A DNA stretch of 64,000 nt, taken from the NCBI RefSeq assembly GCF_013414345.1, contig NZ_CP058670.1:1364001-1428000 (forward strand), read 5' to 3'. Positions within the stretch are counted from its first letter, which is position 1; each line of letters starts with the position of its first letter. The translations under genes and the position numbers were made by a program. The notes beneath the pieces were generated by a model. It saw nothing but the letters and a program-made list of their open reading frames with translations. It had not been told where the DNA came from and made no database searches. The stretch is from Microcella indica. GTDB lineage: Bacteria > Actinomycetota > Actinomycetes > Actinomycetales > Microbacteriaceae. Below, one piece after another: positions 9,036-17,307 of this stretch.

Positions 9036-9495
9036 GCCCACCAGGGCTCGCGCCCTCGAGCAGCTCTGCGCGAGCATCCCGACCCATGGCGCGGTAGGCG
9101 ACCGCCCAGTCGTCGGCGCGCGCCATCACGAGACCCCGCCACGTACCGCCCGCCCTGGCCGGAATCGCGACGACCCCGTCAGGAGTGCGCAGGGCGAAGC
9201 CCACGAGCACGTCGATCGTGTGATCGCCCGCGTCGACCGTGAACATCGCCTCGGTGGCATAGAGCGGATGCTCGTCCGCAGCCCGCGTCGCCTCGAGCCC
9301 GAGCGCCGCGAGCACCCGCTCGACGGCCTCGACGCTGCCCGCCGGCAGCACGAGATCCCAGTCCCTCGCCTCGTCCACCAGCTCGAGGGCGGCGAGAAGC
9401 CCGGAGCCCCCGACGACGGAGGGCACCCCCGCCTCCGCGAGCGCCGCCTGCAACGCGCGCACCGTCTCGAGCGGGGGAGTGCGCGAGGCGGTCAC
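8986..9495 (-). CDS. nucleotidyltransferase-like protein
   Basis: 169 residues from GTG 9495. Residues about 23-43 (GGSGLLAALELVDEARDWDL) resemble the GG(S/G)...D-x-D core of minimal nucleotidyltransferase-fold proteins. The substrate is unknown. The GTG overlaps the stop of the upstream HAD gene as GTGA, indicating coupled translation in a two-gene operon. The last 16 codons overlap the convergent small gene. Confidence 0.6.
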   Translation of the reverse strand: MTASRTPPLETVRALQAALAEAGVPSVVGGSGLLAALELVDEARDWDLVLPAGSVEAVERVLAALGLEATRAADEHPLYATEAMFTVDAGDHTIDVLVGFALRTPDGVVAIPARAGGTWRGLVMARADDWAVAYRAMGRDARAELLEGASPGGLSAGEHPPRGSAPPSS

Positions 9496-10358: not shown

Positions 10359-10706
10359 ATGACTCGTCACTGGAATGCTCCTGCCATCGTGTTCCTCATC
10401 CTCGCCGTCGTGGGGCTCATCGGCACCTGGACGTACAACATCCAGGCCATCGTGCAACGCACAGACTTCCTCGGCGACTGGTTCGCGAACGGCCCAGCCG
10501 TGGGCTCCCTCACCATGGACCTCCTCATCATGGCAGTGGCCGCGTGCGCGTTCATCGTCATCGAGGGGCGGCGCCTCGGCATGCGTCACCTGTGGGCGTA
10601 CATCGTGTTCTCGGGGCTCACGGCGATCGCCTTCACCTTTCCGCTCTTCCTGGCGAACCGCGAGCGGCATCTCGCCGCTCGACGCGACGCCGTGGCACCC
10701 TCCTAG
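10359..10706 (+). CDS. DUF2834 membrane protein
   Basis: 115 residues with three predicted membrane helices, beginning APAIVFLILAVVGLIGTW and containing the NIQAIVQ segment and charged C-terminus usual for DUF2834. No function is established. Its ATG lies only 6 bp from the divergent HAD start codon, so its promoter must lie within the HAD coding region unless the start is further in; no good internal start exists before the first helix. Confidence 0.75.
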   Translation: MTRHWNAPAIVFLILAVVGLIGTWTYNIQAIVQRTDFLGDWFANGPAVGSLTMDLLIMAVAACAFIVIEGRRLGMRHLWAYIVFSGLTAIAFTFPLFLANRERHLAARRDAVAPS

Positions 10707-10727
10707 CGGGGGAAGGGGCGCGACCGA

Positions 10728-11441
10728 GTGACACGATGGCGAATCTTCGGCGTGCTGCGCCTCGCAGCGGCCGTCGCCGGTATCGTCGCGCTCTCGAGCC
10801 GCTTCGTCTACGGCCTGGGGTTCAGCAGCTTCGCCTCGCTCAACTTCTTCGGCTATCTGACGGTGCAGAGCAACATGGTCGCCGTCGTCGCGAACGTGAT
10901 CGGCGGTGTCGTCGCCCTGCGCGCTCGCGGTGAGCCGTCCTGGCTGCCGGGGATGCGCGTCTCGATCGCGACGTTCCTCATCGTCGCGGGCATCGTGTTC
11001 ACGATCCTCGTGACGCAGTCGGCGAGTCGCGGCTACCTCATCGAGGTGCCGTGGAGCGACCGGATCCTGCACTACTGGCTGCCGGCCTTCCTGCTCGTCG
11101 ACTGGCTCGTCGGGCCTGGTAGCCGGCGTGCGCCGTGGCGCACGCTCGCGATCGTCGTCGGGTATCCGCTCGGCTGGGGAACGGTCACGCTCGTGCGCGG
11201 GAGCATCGTGGGCTGGTACCCGTACTTCTTCATGGATCCCGCACAGGTGTCGGGGCCGGGGGAGATCGTCGGCTACGGCGCCGCCGCGCTCGCGCTCTTC
11301 GCGGGTGTCGCCACGATGCTCCTGCTCGCTCCCGCGGTGGAGGATCGCGTCGTCGACGCGCGCGTGATGCAGATTCTCAGGGAGCGCCGAAGAACGGCGC
11401 GAGCTCGGTCATCGCTCGGTCCACAACCTCGTCGTCACTGA
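10728..11441 (+). CDS. Pr6Pr-family integral membrane protein
   Basis: 237 residues with about six membrane helices. The NFFGYLTVQSN segment after helix 1, the HYWLPAFLLVDWLV helix and the GWYPYFFMDP turn are characteristic of the Pr6Pr family. Function is unknown. The GTG at 10728 is preceded by GGGGGAAGG. The last 65 bp overlap the end of the convergent amine oxidase gene (11377), an unusually long convergent overlap. Confidence 0.75.
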   Translation: MTRWRIFGVLRLAAAVAGIVALSSRFVYGLGFSSFASLNFFGYLTVQSNMVAVVANVIGGVVALRARGEPSWLPGMRVSIATFLIVAGIVFTILVTQSASRGYLIEVPWSDRILHYWLPAFLLVDWLVGPGSRRAPWRTLAIVVGYPLGWGTVTLVRGSIVGWYPYFFMDPAQVSGPGEIVGYGAAALALFAGVATMLLLAPAVEDRVVDARVMQILRERRRTARARSSLGPQPRRH

Positions 11442-12771
11442 GCGCCGCGAGTCGAGCGACGCTCTGCGGACCGACGATCCCGACGAGCACGGGCGCGCTG
11501 ACGAGCGCGTCGAGGTTGATCCACTCGGTCACGAGTGCCTCCTGCGTCGGGTCGGTGAGCCACACGTGCGCCGTCTCAGCCCACGTCGCCTCGTCGAATC
11601 GGAGGATTAGCGTGTCGAGCGACCCCACCCCGAGCGAGGCGATCGCCTCGCGGTGCGCGAGCGGCAGTGCGGGCTCGAAGGTGATGCCGTCGTCCTGCAG
11701 CACGCCGAGCGGCACCGTCACGACGACACGGTCGACGGCCAGCGACTCACCGGAGCCGAGGCGCAGGGCGGCCCCGTCCTCGTCGTAGAGCACGGCTGCC
11801 ACGGCGCTCGCCCGCAGCACGTCCACCCCCTCGAGGAGGCTCTTGATGAAGCTCTCGAGCCCGCCCGAGACGAGGGCCTCCCAGCCACCGGGCACCTCGT
11901 CGAGGCCGGGGTCGACCGAGATCTGGCGCGCGAGCGCCCCGAAGCGCGCCCCGACCAGCTCCGCCGTCGCGGCTGCAGCCGCCTCCGTCTCGCTGAGCGC
12001 GTTCTCCGCAGAGTCGGTCCCGAGGGGTGCCAGTCGGGCGAGCGCGGTCGAGAGCGGGATGTCGAACTCCACCTCGCTGGCGACCTCTCGAGCGCGCGCG
12101 AGAACCGCCTCCCGCATCCCATCCGCGTCGATCTCGTCACCCGATGCCGCCCGCCGCATGATCGTCGTGACATCCAGAACCGACAGCTCGAGCTCGTCCA
12201 GCGCGTCGCGCAGGGCGCTCGGCTGCTCCCGCCCGATCCGCAGGGCGCCGAGCTCGACCGGAACCGGCCAGTCGCGTGCCGTCAGGGTGTGCACACGACC
12301 GCCGAGTCGCTCGCGCGCTTCCACCACGACGACATCGTGACCCGCCTCGCTCAGTCGGTGAGCGCACGCGGCACCCGCCATACCGGCACCGATGACGGCG
12401 ATGCGCTCCCCGAGGAGGGCGGTGCGCAGAACCTCGCCAGCCGCCCGCAGGCCGCTCGCCCGGGCGCCCTCGACACTGTTGGGCGCGTCCACCGACGTCG
12501 CCTCACCGGCAAAGAACAGTCGGTCGGCGACGGGCGCGGCGAGGCGCGCCCGGTCGGCCGGTTCGGCACCGACCGGCAGAAAACTCGTCGCACCGCGCGA
12601 GAACGACTCGGTGGCCCACGCACTGCGCGCCATGCCGGTCGGGCGCGGTGGGCCCGCCGTGGACGGTGCGCTGGGTTCGGGGCTCGGCCCGGGCTCCTGA
12701 GTGCACGCCGCGACGGCCAGAACGGAGAGCCCGGTGACCCCGGTCATCAGTGTGCGTCGCGTGATGCTCAT
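11377..12771 (-). CDS. Tat-exported lipoprotein, circularly permuted flavin amine oxidase
   Basis: 464 residues. Residues 1-23 form a twin-arginine signal (SITRRTLMTG) ending in lipobox VAAC, so the protein should be attached to the outer face of the membrane. In ordinary flavin monoamine/polyamine oxidases the Rossmann motif comes first and FSRG..FLPVG..RLFFAGEAT comes last. Here the order is reversed: FSRGATSFLPVG (57-68) and FFAGEAT (86-92) precede IGAGMAG (127-133) and LGGRVHT; the protein then ends after the substrate-domain segment SDDEVVDRAMTELAPFFGAP. Every expected segment is present once in one uninterrupted frame. Substrate unknown. Tat export implies folding with FAD before translocation. 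Confidence 0.88.
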   Translation of the reverse strand: MSITRRTLMTGVTGLSVLAVAACTQEPGPSPEPSAPSTAGPPRPTGMARSAWATESFSRGATSFLPVGAEPADRARLAAPVADRLFFAGEATSVDAPNSVEGARASGLRAAGEVLRTALLGERIAVIGAGMAGAACAHRLSEAGHDVVVVEARERLGGRVHTLTARDWPVPVELGALRIGREQPSALRDALDELELSVLDVTTIMRRAASGDEIDADGMREAVLARAREVASEVEFDIPLSTALARLAPLGTDSAENALSETEAAAAATAELVGARFGALARQISVDPGLDEVPGGWEALVSGGLESFIKSLLEGVDVLRASAVAAVLYDEDGAALRLGSGESLAVDRVVVTVPLGVLQDDGITFEPALPLAHREAIASLGVGSLDTLILRFDEATWAETAHVWLTDPTQEALVTEWINLDALVSAPVLVGIVGPQSVARLAALSDDEVVDRAMTELAPFFGAP

Positions 12772-12821
12772 GACAGGGCCACTGTATCGGCGTGGCCCGC
12801 ACGCGCGATCGGTTCGGGATG

Positions 12822-12860
12822 CGACGAAGCCCCGGCGGGTGACCCGCCGGGGCTTCGTCG
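12822..12860. terminator. long G/C-rich hairpin between the amine oxidase gene and tRNA-Leu
   Basis: Bases 12822-12840 and 12842-12860 are a perfect 19-bp inverted repeat with a minimal loop. No T-tract follows on either side. It probably terminates the tRNA-Leu transcript, which runs toward it on the minus strand. Confidence 0.6.
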
Positions 12861-15459: not shown

Positions 15460-15495
15460 CGGCTCGGCAGCCGCGCGGGCGGTGAGGTCGCCTAG

Positions 15496-17307
15496 GAGAC
15501 TGCTGAACAAGGGGTCTTGACCGTGGTCGGCTGGGCCGTGTCGGTTCTCTGGGCGGGCGTCGGTGGCTCGGTTCTTGGTCTGCCGTGCCAATAGTTGTCT
15601 GCCCGGAAGGCGGCGTTGCGGCACTGTTGGCGGGGGTTCCGCCGAGCTGCGACCGTGATTGGGCGCACTGGCTGGCTCTATCCGAGCGCCCAGTTCCCGT
15701 TGTGGAAGGTGAGGCCGAGGTTGAGAAGTCGTTTGAGGTTGATTCCGGCGGCGCGGGTGACCCACCAGGCGTTGTTCTTCGCGACGCCACGGAACGGCAC
15801 GCGTCTGGCGTCGCGGGTGAGCCACGCGATTGAGCGTTCGACCATTGGCCGGTGTTGCCGGTAATCGGCTTGGAAGCCAGGATCCGCGGCTCGGGCCCGG
15901 TGTTCGCGTTTGATCCGGTCATGCGCAGTCACGGTCATCTTCCGTCCTCGCGCCGCCGTGGTGCATCGAAGCTTCAACGGACAGGAGGAGCAGACGCTGC
16001 CGAAGGTCACTGTTCCCTTGGCGGCGATCGGTCGGGTGACTCCGGCCGGGCAGGTCATCGTTCCCGCGGTGTCATCGACGGTGAAGTCATCGATGGTGAA
16101 CCCGTCAGGAACCGCCCGGGCCAGCGGCATCGGCTTGATAATCGCGGTGTGACCGGCGGTTCCGATCTGGTCGAGCAGCTCACCGCTGCCGTAGGCCGAA
16201 TCGGCCAGCACGTCGACCGGTTCCTCGCCGATGCTGGTATCGGCGGTGAGCAGCTCCGCCCCGCGGGCCGCGTCGCTGTTCGCCGCCCCGGACGCCTTCG
16301 TGAGGGCGGCAGCGGTGACCAGACCGGTGTCCGGCTCGATCACAACGTGGGCTTTGAAGCCGTCCTGCTTCTTCTCCCGCGACTTGTGCGCATGCCGGGT
16401 GTCCGGATCAACGGTTGAGATCATCCGCTCCGGGGCGACCTTCCGGGCGATCCGCCACCGCCCATCGGTGCCATCGGAATCCTCCGCCGGCTCAACGTCC
16501 TGCCCTGCGACCAGTGCCAGCAACGCCACCGTTTCCTGCTGCTTCTCGCTCAGTTCGACACCGTCGAGCTCCGCCAGCAGCGTCAACGCGTCGTTCACCA
16601 ACGCTGAGACGAGCAGATCGCGGGCGGCCGGGTCATCCCAGGCAATGTCCGGCTTCCCAGGCGTGGAGTAGTCATGCCCGGGCAGGCCCGCGATGAGCTC
16701 CGCCGTTGCGGGGACCTCCCGCCCGACTCGGCGGATCTGCGCGATCAGCTGGGTCACCGTGTCCTGCCGGGCAACCGCATCGTCGAGGATCGTGGAATCG
16801 ATCGCCCGTCGCCGTCGACCGGTCAACGCCCCCGACTGAGCGATGACCTCGGCCACGGCATCGAAGATGCGATGCGGCCGCTCACTGCCAGCCAGACGGC
16901 GCCGCCAATACGTCAACACCGACGGGTGGAACGCTGTCTGGGCCACCGCGAACCCACAGGCCGCTTTCCAGCGCAGATCAAACGTGACCGCCTCCGCAGT
17001 CTCCCGATCGGAGAGGTTATGAATCGTCTGCAACACCAACACCGACGCGATCACATCCGCCGGGATCGAGGGACGACCCCGCCCGGACGGGAACAGATCC
17101 GCGAACGCGTCATCCGGGAACAGTTGCCTCCGGTGAGCGGCCAGGAACGCGAACACCGACCCCCGCGGGAGCAAATGACCCGCCCAGGACTGAACATCCA
17201 ACAGTTGACGCTGACCATCGTCACTACCCTGCATGAACCAAGTCTTAACCCGCAGCCCGGACCAGTCCGCAGGCGCGCCTTAAACCCCCGAATTGTTCAG
17301 CGGTCTC
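15496..17307 (-). mobile_element. IS1182-family insertion sequence
   Basis: 1812 bp bounded by imperfect terminal inverted repeats (GAGACTGCTGAACAA at 15496-15510; complement at 17293-17307, 14 of 15 matching). Directly outside lie CTAG at 15492-15495 and CTAG at 17308-17311, a 4-bp palindromic target duplication. It contains one transposase gene and about 180 bp of non-coding sequence at the left end. Intact ends, intact gene and matching duplications suggest recent insertion. Confidence 0.9.
15678..17234 (-). CDS. IS1182-family transposase
   Basis: 518 residues. The N-terminal DUF772-like region (SIPADVIASVLVLQTIHNLSD) precedes a DDE catalytic domain. The three acidic residues appear in AIDSTILDD, VLADSAYGSGE and RPMVERSIAWL, and a Cys cluster (CSSCPLKLRC) lies between the last two. 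All expected catalytic residues are present, so the element may be active. The protein ends NGNWALG without truncation. Confidence 0.92.
   Translation of the reverse strand: MQGSDDGQRQLLDVQSWAGHLLPRGSVFAFLAAHRRQLFPDDAFADLFPSGRGRPSIPADVIASVLVLQTIHNLSDRETAEAVTFDLRWKAACGFAVAQTAFHPSVLTYWRRRLAGSERPHRIFDAVAEVIAQSGALTGRRRRAIDSTILDDAVARQDTVTQLIAQIRRVGREVPATAELIAGLPGHDYSTPGKPDIAWDDPAARDLLVSALVNDALTLLAELDGVELSEKQQETVALLALVAGQDVEPAEDSDGTDGRWRIARKVAPERMISTVDPDTRHAHKSREKKQDGFKAHVVIEPDTGLVTAAALTKASGAANSDAARGAELLTADTSIGEEPVDVLADSAYGSGELLDQIGTAGHTAIIKPMPLARAVPDGFTIDDFTVDDTAGTMTCPAGVTRPIAAKGTVTFGSVCSSCPLKLRCTTAARGRKMTVTAHDRIKREHRARAADPGFQADYRQHRPMVERSIAWLTRDARRVPFRGVAKNNAWWVTRAAGINLKRLLNLGLTFHNGNWALG

Follow-up and report, generated by a model that had tools for sequence, protein, structure and literature searches.

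The window analyzed here, a 64,000-nucleotide stretch of the Microcella indica genome, encodes a predicted lipoprotein of the flavin amine oxidase (FAO) superfamily (PF01593) whose segments follow one another in circularly permuted order. Sequence comparisons confirmed this as a genuine circular permutation of the FAO fold: both parts of the protein are homologous to one canonical protein, their order is swapped, and the gene is conserved and under selection. We consider it likely that the protein is a functional, natural circular permutant with the history and properties set out below. The features discussed, with their window positions, are as follows.

10359 to 10706: DUF2834 gene (PF11196), flanking the empty site on one side where a genome lacks the gene pair
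10728 to 11441, plus strand: convergent partner gene, Pr6Pr family membrane protein (NF038065, 107.6 bits)
11377 to 12771, minus strand: permuted FAO-fold lipoprotein, 464 amino acids (open reading frame, PF01593 match, collinear homologues)
11380 to 12417, minus strand: residues 119 to 464, the N-terminal part plus substrate domain of canonical members (PF01593 matches)
11611 to 11613, minus strand: Thr387, at the position of LSD1 Lys661 in the lysine-water-flavin motif (LSD1 alignment)
12373 to 12393, minus strand: FAD Rossmann motif IGAGMAG, residues 127 to 133 (sequence, alignment A1)
12394 to 12438, minus strand: new join of old C terminus to old N terminus, residues 112 to 126 (join-spanning matches, length census)
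12427 to 12651, minus strand: segment that is C-terminal in canonical members, residues 41 to 115, PF01593 positions 370 to 443 (Pfam, LSD1 and L019 alignments)
12586 to 12588, minus strand: Thr62, at the position of LSD1 Tyr761 in the aromatic cage (LSD1 alignment)
12703 to 12705, minus strand: lipobox-like Cys23, predicted lipid anchor (invariant in A1)
12706 to 12771, minus strand: Tat-type signal peptide, residues 1 to 22, MSITRRTLMTGVTGLSVLAVAA (sequence; R5 and R6 invariant in A1)

Segment order, join, and export signal

Flavin amine oxidases such as MAO, LSD1, and the polyamine oxidases are well studied, and both chain ends contribute to their FAD site. In the window protein, the segment that closes this site (AGEAT..G..SG) is present at residues 41 to 115, upstream of the Rossmann motif instead of at the C terminus; the motifs FSRG, FLPVG, RLFFAGEAT, and NSVEGARASGLRAA occupy residues 57 to 60, 64 to 68, 84 to 92, and 98 to 111. 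A genome Pfam search placed three pieces of PF01593 along the protein, matching profile positions 370 to 443 (E = 4.1e-14), 1 to 85 (2.0e-13), and 198 to 367 (3.0e-25), all in the same 496-codon open frame, with the third extending slightly beyond the stop of the gene. Against PF01593 the whole protein scored 181.4 bits (E = 5.1e-53), well past the family cutoff of 19.8 bits. Along the LSD1 chain, the matched residues of the window protein run in the order 121 to 179, 301 to 463, and 41 to 115, so that the first block of the window protein is the last of LSD1. L019, a canonical protein from the same genus, provided a control: with the window protein as the query (P0001), residues 136 to 457 aligned at positions 156 to 476, and residues 42 to 115 aligned downstream, at 484 to 557. 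A split-profile test recovered a single C-type segment followed by a single N-type segment in the window frame. The permuted order claimed in the original prediction, with each segment occurring once in one frame, was thus borne out by the order of the Pfam pieces, the split-profile test, and the control; the Pfam E values and L019 also rule out chance motif matches.

The FAD motifs are strongly conserved among permuted proteins. The dinucleotide-binding GxGxxG (128, 130, and 133), the distal Glu (E151), GGR (157 to 159), and AGE (88 to 90) are invariant in all 34 rows of alignment A1 and all 65 rows of alignment A2; the A2 invariance of AGE, and of PLGVL, is partly built in, because the GTDB loci were retrieved with patterns that included FFAGEAT and PLGVL.

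The original prediction also described a 15-residue join, and 15 residues do lie between A111 and I127. Among the 99 permuted frames measured, SG in the moved segment lies 20 residues from the first Rossmann Gly in 77, 18 in 11, and 19 in 4; the remaining values were 25, 17, and five of 10 to 11 that are probably pattern slips, and one frame was unmeasurable. Canonical proteins mostly continue for 9 to 13 residues from SG to the chain end (exceptions range from 5 to 24), and four canonical proteins that have no signal-like start (L134, L141, L144, and L147) begin 8 to 14 residues before the Rossmann Gly. Comparison of these distances suggests that the join is about as long as an end-to-end fusion of two bare canonical termini. 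Since FAD motifs are kept on both sides of the cut and the join has this length, we expect the FAD site to be closed by the moved segment as before.

We postulate that the permuted gene most likely goes back to a tandem duplication of an ancestral canonical gene, in which the C terminus of copy 1 became fused to the bare N terminus of copy 2. Trimming of the outer parts would then have placed the new N terminus in the loop that immediately precedes the W..DP...GS.S segment. The join length is compatible with this course of events. Among 100 permuted and 39 canonical distinct frames with both segments, no intermediate with mixed order or two C-type segments was found, so the route itself is one that we infer. 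Separately, an actinobacterial genome (G509, locus L211) carries two canonical flavin amine oxidase genes in tandem on one strand. This is the type of arrangement that could yield a permuted fusion; as a direct precursor, the L211 pair was rejected because its copies have diverged.

The window protein begins with a twin arginine, a hydrophobic stretch, and a lipobox Cys (MSITRRTLMTGVTGLSVLAVAAC), and R5, R6, and C23 are invariant in 34/34 proteins of A1, for which the start codons of the relatives were chosen near RR; this agrees with the Tat lipoprotein signal that had been predicted. From this Tat-like signal and lipobox-like Cys, we predict export of the protein in folded form with bound FAD and lipid anchoring at the outside of the membrane. 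A simple pattern search found RR in 64 of 66 permuted proteins (those of L124 and L142 are probably not signals) and a lipobox near the chosen start in 52 of 66. The same pattern found RR at the ordinary N terminus of 9 of 14 canonical relatives, L145 being doubtful; several lipobox matches in canonical relatives are spurious, since they lie within the Rossmann region, and one canonical protein (L158) has both RR and a lipobox-like Cys. The original prediction had tied the permutation to the addition of a Tat signal at a new N terminus. Because Tat-like starts occur in both permuted and canonical proteins, Tat export fails to explain the permutation.

Recurrence and evolutionary origin

A single collinear match to the whole permuted protein was found in 9 of 26 genus genomes, the window's own included; the other eight homologues share 47 to 59% identity with it, and the copy in G024 is cut by a contig end. 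Five further genus genomes (G007, G008, G018, G019, and G023) have canonical-order homologues, with 32 to 34% identity over the larger block. With residues 41 to 180 as the query, join-crossing matches were detected in 134 of 398 family genomes, a few of which (G261, G382, G388, G381, and G037) covered the query only partially. The same order was therefore present in other Microbacteriaceae, where the original prediction had proposed to look for it, and it extends beyond the family. A junction profile built from alignment A3 (30 rows) gave join-spanning matches in 8 of 296 genomes of a phylum draw, among the matches listed; in 8 of 247 genomes of the class of G504 (E ≤ 1e-28); and in 17 of 248 genomes of the order (E ≤ 1e-28), 4 of the 17 from outside the family. 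Canonical proteins, for example that of G451, appear under this profile as two separate pieces, a built-in control. Three weak candidates for join-spanning genes were rejected: G236 (L204) is canonical, and its match continues past the stop; G351 (L205) has no C-type segment found by the profile; and G509 (L158) is canonical, with a match that extends into the signal region.

A contig scan of GTDB with a single-protein query returned no matches; with alignment A1 as the query it did find relatives. Of the best 80 of at least 554 confirmed relatives, which are not a census, the split-profile test assigned 66 to the permuted order and 14 to the canonical order. The permuted loci include ones labeled Cryobacterium, Microbacterium, Rathayibacter, Leifsonia, Herbiconiux, Naasia, Microcella, and Yonghaparkia. 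Further permuted loci came from Acidimicrobiia and relatives, Alphaproteobacteria (Cochlodiniinecator, Nioella, Erythrobacter, and others), and one MAG each, with a single permuted locus, of the cyanobacterium Okeania and of the verrucomicrobial Opitutaceae; many of the loci outside the Microbacteriaceae are MAGs, for which the organism label is less certain. Plasmid relatives (Synechocystis, Haloarcula, and Nostoc) have the canonical order.

Recurrence on this scale means that the join is due neither to chance nor to misassembly. The original prediction had named a sequencing or assembly error joining two partial genes as a finding that would overturn it, and we put the chance of such an error, of a fortuitous fusion of two fragments, or of a decaying pseudogene as very remote. 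The genes of G382 (L206, a family genome) and G874 (L190) are split between two frames and are either decayed copies or sequencing errors, as those explanations would have it. Against them, more than 100 genomes, complete and named-strain ones included, have this join with little change in its length; the window gene is one open frame under purifying selection; and the site is cleanly empty in a relative (G009, described below). Among the 40 pairs listed of 94, with some pairs repeating one gene taken twice, dN/dS was 0.08 to 0.35, and for the window gene versus L010 it was about 0.33 at a dS near 1. By these ratios, selection on the permuted gene is purifying.

For phylogenetic analysis, 79 proteins (46 permuted and 33 canonical) were re-ordered to a common segment order. 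Two larger permuted clades were resolved: one of 28 rows (support 100/98), comprising 22 Microbacteriaceae-type rows and 6 from Acidimicrobiia or other Actinomycetota, and one of 11 rows (89/87) from Alphaproteobacteria, Okeania, Opitutaceae, and two Actinomycetota. L117+L118+L131, L151+L153, L125, and L142 fell outside both. Distances in the two segments are correlated (Spearman 0.56 for 1,035 permuted pairs and 0.75 for canonical pairs). The canonical homologues of the genus grouped with canonical, mostly proteobacterial rows (91/94), and so are not the direct parent of the permuted gene.

On the free tree, segment order requires three changes, two of them forced by starred branches, so the permuted order may have arisen more than once or have reverted. 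That the permutation arose several times independently instead of once is an alternative we find plausible but rather improbable. Besides the number of changes, the rows lying apart from the two larger clades speak for it, L142 in particular, whose neighbors on the tree are canonical rows from Chloroflexi and cyanobacteria (97/69 and 99/93). However, L142 begins at a contig end, a single permuted clade is not rejected (AU p = 0.201), and the permuted proteins have their cut point and join length in common.

Catalytic positions, the neighboring gene, and possible roles

In an alignment to 8q1h_A, Thr387 and Thr62 of the window protein fall by hand count at chain positions 539 and 639; in the LSD1 chain of 852 residues this match begins 122 residues further on, which gives the numbering Lys661 and Tyr761. 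The window protein therefore has Thr where LSD1 has the flavin-N5 lysine and Thr where it has the aromatic-cage tyrosine. For the role of these two residues in FAO active sites we draw on excerpts of PMC3184146 and PMC12272882; the former reports that K661A abolishes LSD1 activity and that Lys300Met makes flavin reduction by maize polyamine oxidase 1,400-fold slower.

Across A2, the Lys661 position is Lys in 36 of 65 permuted rows, Thr in 23, and another residue in 6. In the 79-row set, the Tyr761 position is Tyr in 31/33 canonical and 24/46 permuted rows. Tyr and Lys occur together in 29 of the 33 canonical rows. Of the 46 permuted rows, 22 form the Microbacteriaceae clade, in which no row has both residues and 3 have Lys alone; of the other 24, 23 have both. 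The canonical homologues of the genus retain both residues. Loss within the family is nevertheless incomplete, since Cryobacterium rows L090, L097, and L105 of A2 keep the pair. The tree requires six changes for Lys and two for Tyr. In the Microbacteriaceae branch, then, the cage tyrosine and usually the flavin-N5 lysine have been replaced, and a Pr6Pr gene mostly lies beside the permuted gene.

The 3′ end of this Pr6Pr gene overlaps the oxidase gene by 65 bases in the window; its product had no Pfam match at E = 0.01. Of the 26 genus genomes, the 9 with the permuted gene, and no others, also have a close Pr6Pr orthologue (52 to 72% identity, the window's own aside), which in G024 lies on a different contig from the permuted gene; the other 17 have only weaker relatives, with up to 38% identity. 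Among the permuted GTDB loci, the Pr6Pr gene adjoins 43 of 66. In 42 of these it is on the opposite strand, and the match at L095 is doubtful, being in the wrong frame. It was not seen at 23 of 66: L087, L114, L125, and 20 loci labeled other than Microbacteriaceae, where BLAST clustering at E = 1e-12 found no partner and could have missed diverged ones. L111, labeled Actinomycetota only, does have the partner. In the Microbacteriaceae, the gene comparisons show that the permuted gene is mostly paired with a Pr6Pr gene. In seven Cryobacterium loci (L069, L073, L080, L090, L097, L105, and L138), 520 to 630 bases separate the two genes.

The nearest relative by M20 peptidase (G009, 94%) does not have window positions 10669 to 12858, which hold both genes, between the DUF2834 gene and the M20 gene. 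The alignable flanks in G010 and G003 also skip the gene pair, with about 120 and about 540 bases between them.

Other differences and neighbors were recorded at these loci. About 245 bases of the window (9112 to 9356) are missing in G009 (L180), within an otherwise 92 to 93% identical stretch. Positions 15469 to 17306 are likewise absent from G009, where the flanks continue at 89 to 95% identity; this stretch contains a DDE transposase gene (15678 to 17234, minus strand; PF13751, PF05598, and PF01609) and is probably a recent insertion sequence. Elsewhere, the permuted genes of L117 and L118, which keep Tyr and Lys, lie near a carbon-nitrogen hydrolase (by Pfam in both), with a class III aminotransferase and a GntR/aminotransferase regulator confirmed in L118 only; these neighbors are a possible hint of amine or pyrimidine catabolism. 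In L108, a moeA gene identified by Pfam is oriented divergently to the permuted gene, as is a similar-looking ORF in L112.

With Thr at both the Lys661 and Tyr761 positions, the window protein may not be an ordinary amine oxidase. Of the original assignment as a flavin amine oxidase, the fold holds, given the PF01593 match and the FAD motifs, while activity as an ordinary amine oxidase is doubtful. We tentatively favor, as the most likely role, a surface FAD dehydrogenase with weak O2 reactivity and a shifted substrate that would pass electrons to a membrane acceptor instead of O2. The two observations behind this inference are the lost lysine and the predicted surface location. None of the neighbors identified beside the permuted gene is a gene for electron transfer.

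An alternative hypothesis, which we regard as unlikely, is that the permuted protein is an O2-using amine or polyamine oxidase of the usual kind in which other residues replace the lost Lys and Tyr. Its best relatives of known structure are LSD1, LSD2, and the spermine and polyamine oxidases, and nearly all permuted rows outside the Microbacteriaceae clade (23/24) keep both residues; yet the window protein has Thr at both, and the effects of the LSD1 and maize polyamine oxidase substitutions in the PMC3184146 excerpts speak against easy replacement. Somewhat less probable still, in our judgment, is a pseudoenzyme: a surface lipoprotein, with or without bound FAD, that is retained for a binding or structural function and has the Pr6Pr protein as its partner. 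The loss of both signature catalytic residues, the dN/dS of about 0.33 against L010, and the joint presence or absence with a membrane protein gene would all suit such a protein, but the invariance of GxGxxG, E151, GGR, and AGE in A1 and A2 (for AGE in A2, partly selected by the scan pattern) speaks against it.

Returning to the dehydrogenase role, we speculate further, at a level of confidence that makes it doubtful, that in the Microbacteriaceae a lipid-anchored permuted flavoprotein without N5 lysine and cage tyrosine has moved past amine oxidation and might form a two-gene surface redox module, a new type of extracytoplasmic flavin dehydrogenase, in which the Pr6Pr protein would let electrons out or gate the substrate.

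Comparison with known flavin amine oxidases

The permuted FAO family is real and occurs in many bacteria. We found no earlier description of a circularly permuted flavin amine oxidase in the open-license PMC literature, judged by title and the start of the abstract, nor any mention of the Pr6Pr family in the open-license PMC literature. As a natural permutant in several bacterial groups, the family indicates that evolution has joined the FAO chain ends and opened the chain elsewhere, and it allows the order of the chain, the order of folding, and the Tat export of a protein already loaded with its cofactor to be tested apart from one another. Some permuted lineages have kept the catalytic lysine and others have lost it, a natural series for asking how oxygen reactivity is set. 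The family also suggests that hidden permutations may sit behind split Pfam matches and generic oxidoreductase names.

The nicotine-degrading flavin amine dehydrogenases NicA2 and NctX, which belong to the same family, serve as a model of an FAO at the cell surface that does without O2. In the excerpts of PMC12272882, NctX enzymes are described as lipoproteins with a predicted membrane anchor and NicA2 as a dehydrogenase that uses cytochrome c; the active-site lysine is present (Lys340, Lys331), and the operons contain cytochrome c genes. The window gene differs from them in its missing lysine and its convergent Pr6Pr neighbor. The canonical homologues of the genus (G007, G008, G018, G019, and G023) contain the same segments as the window protein, at the 32 to 34% identity given above; they differ in having the ordinary order and in keeping Tyr and Lys.

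Among solved structures, the best profile matches are LSD2, LSD1, and the spermine and polyamine oxidases. Each of the 60 matches listed, of 258, consists of two or three separate stretches, and none of these 60 is a permuted structure. The window protein thus resembles the PF01593 superfamily (LSD1/LSD2, polyamine and spermine oxidases, and MAO) in its profile match and its retained FAD motifs, and it differs from that superfamily in its permuted segment order and in the Thr residues at the positions of LSD1 Lys661 and Tyr761.
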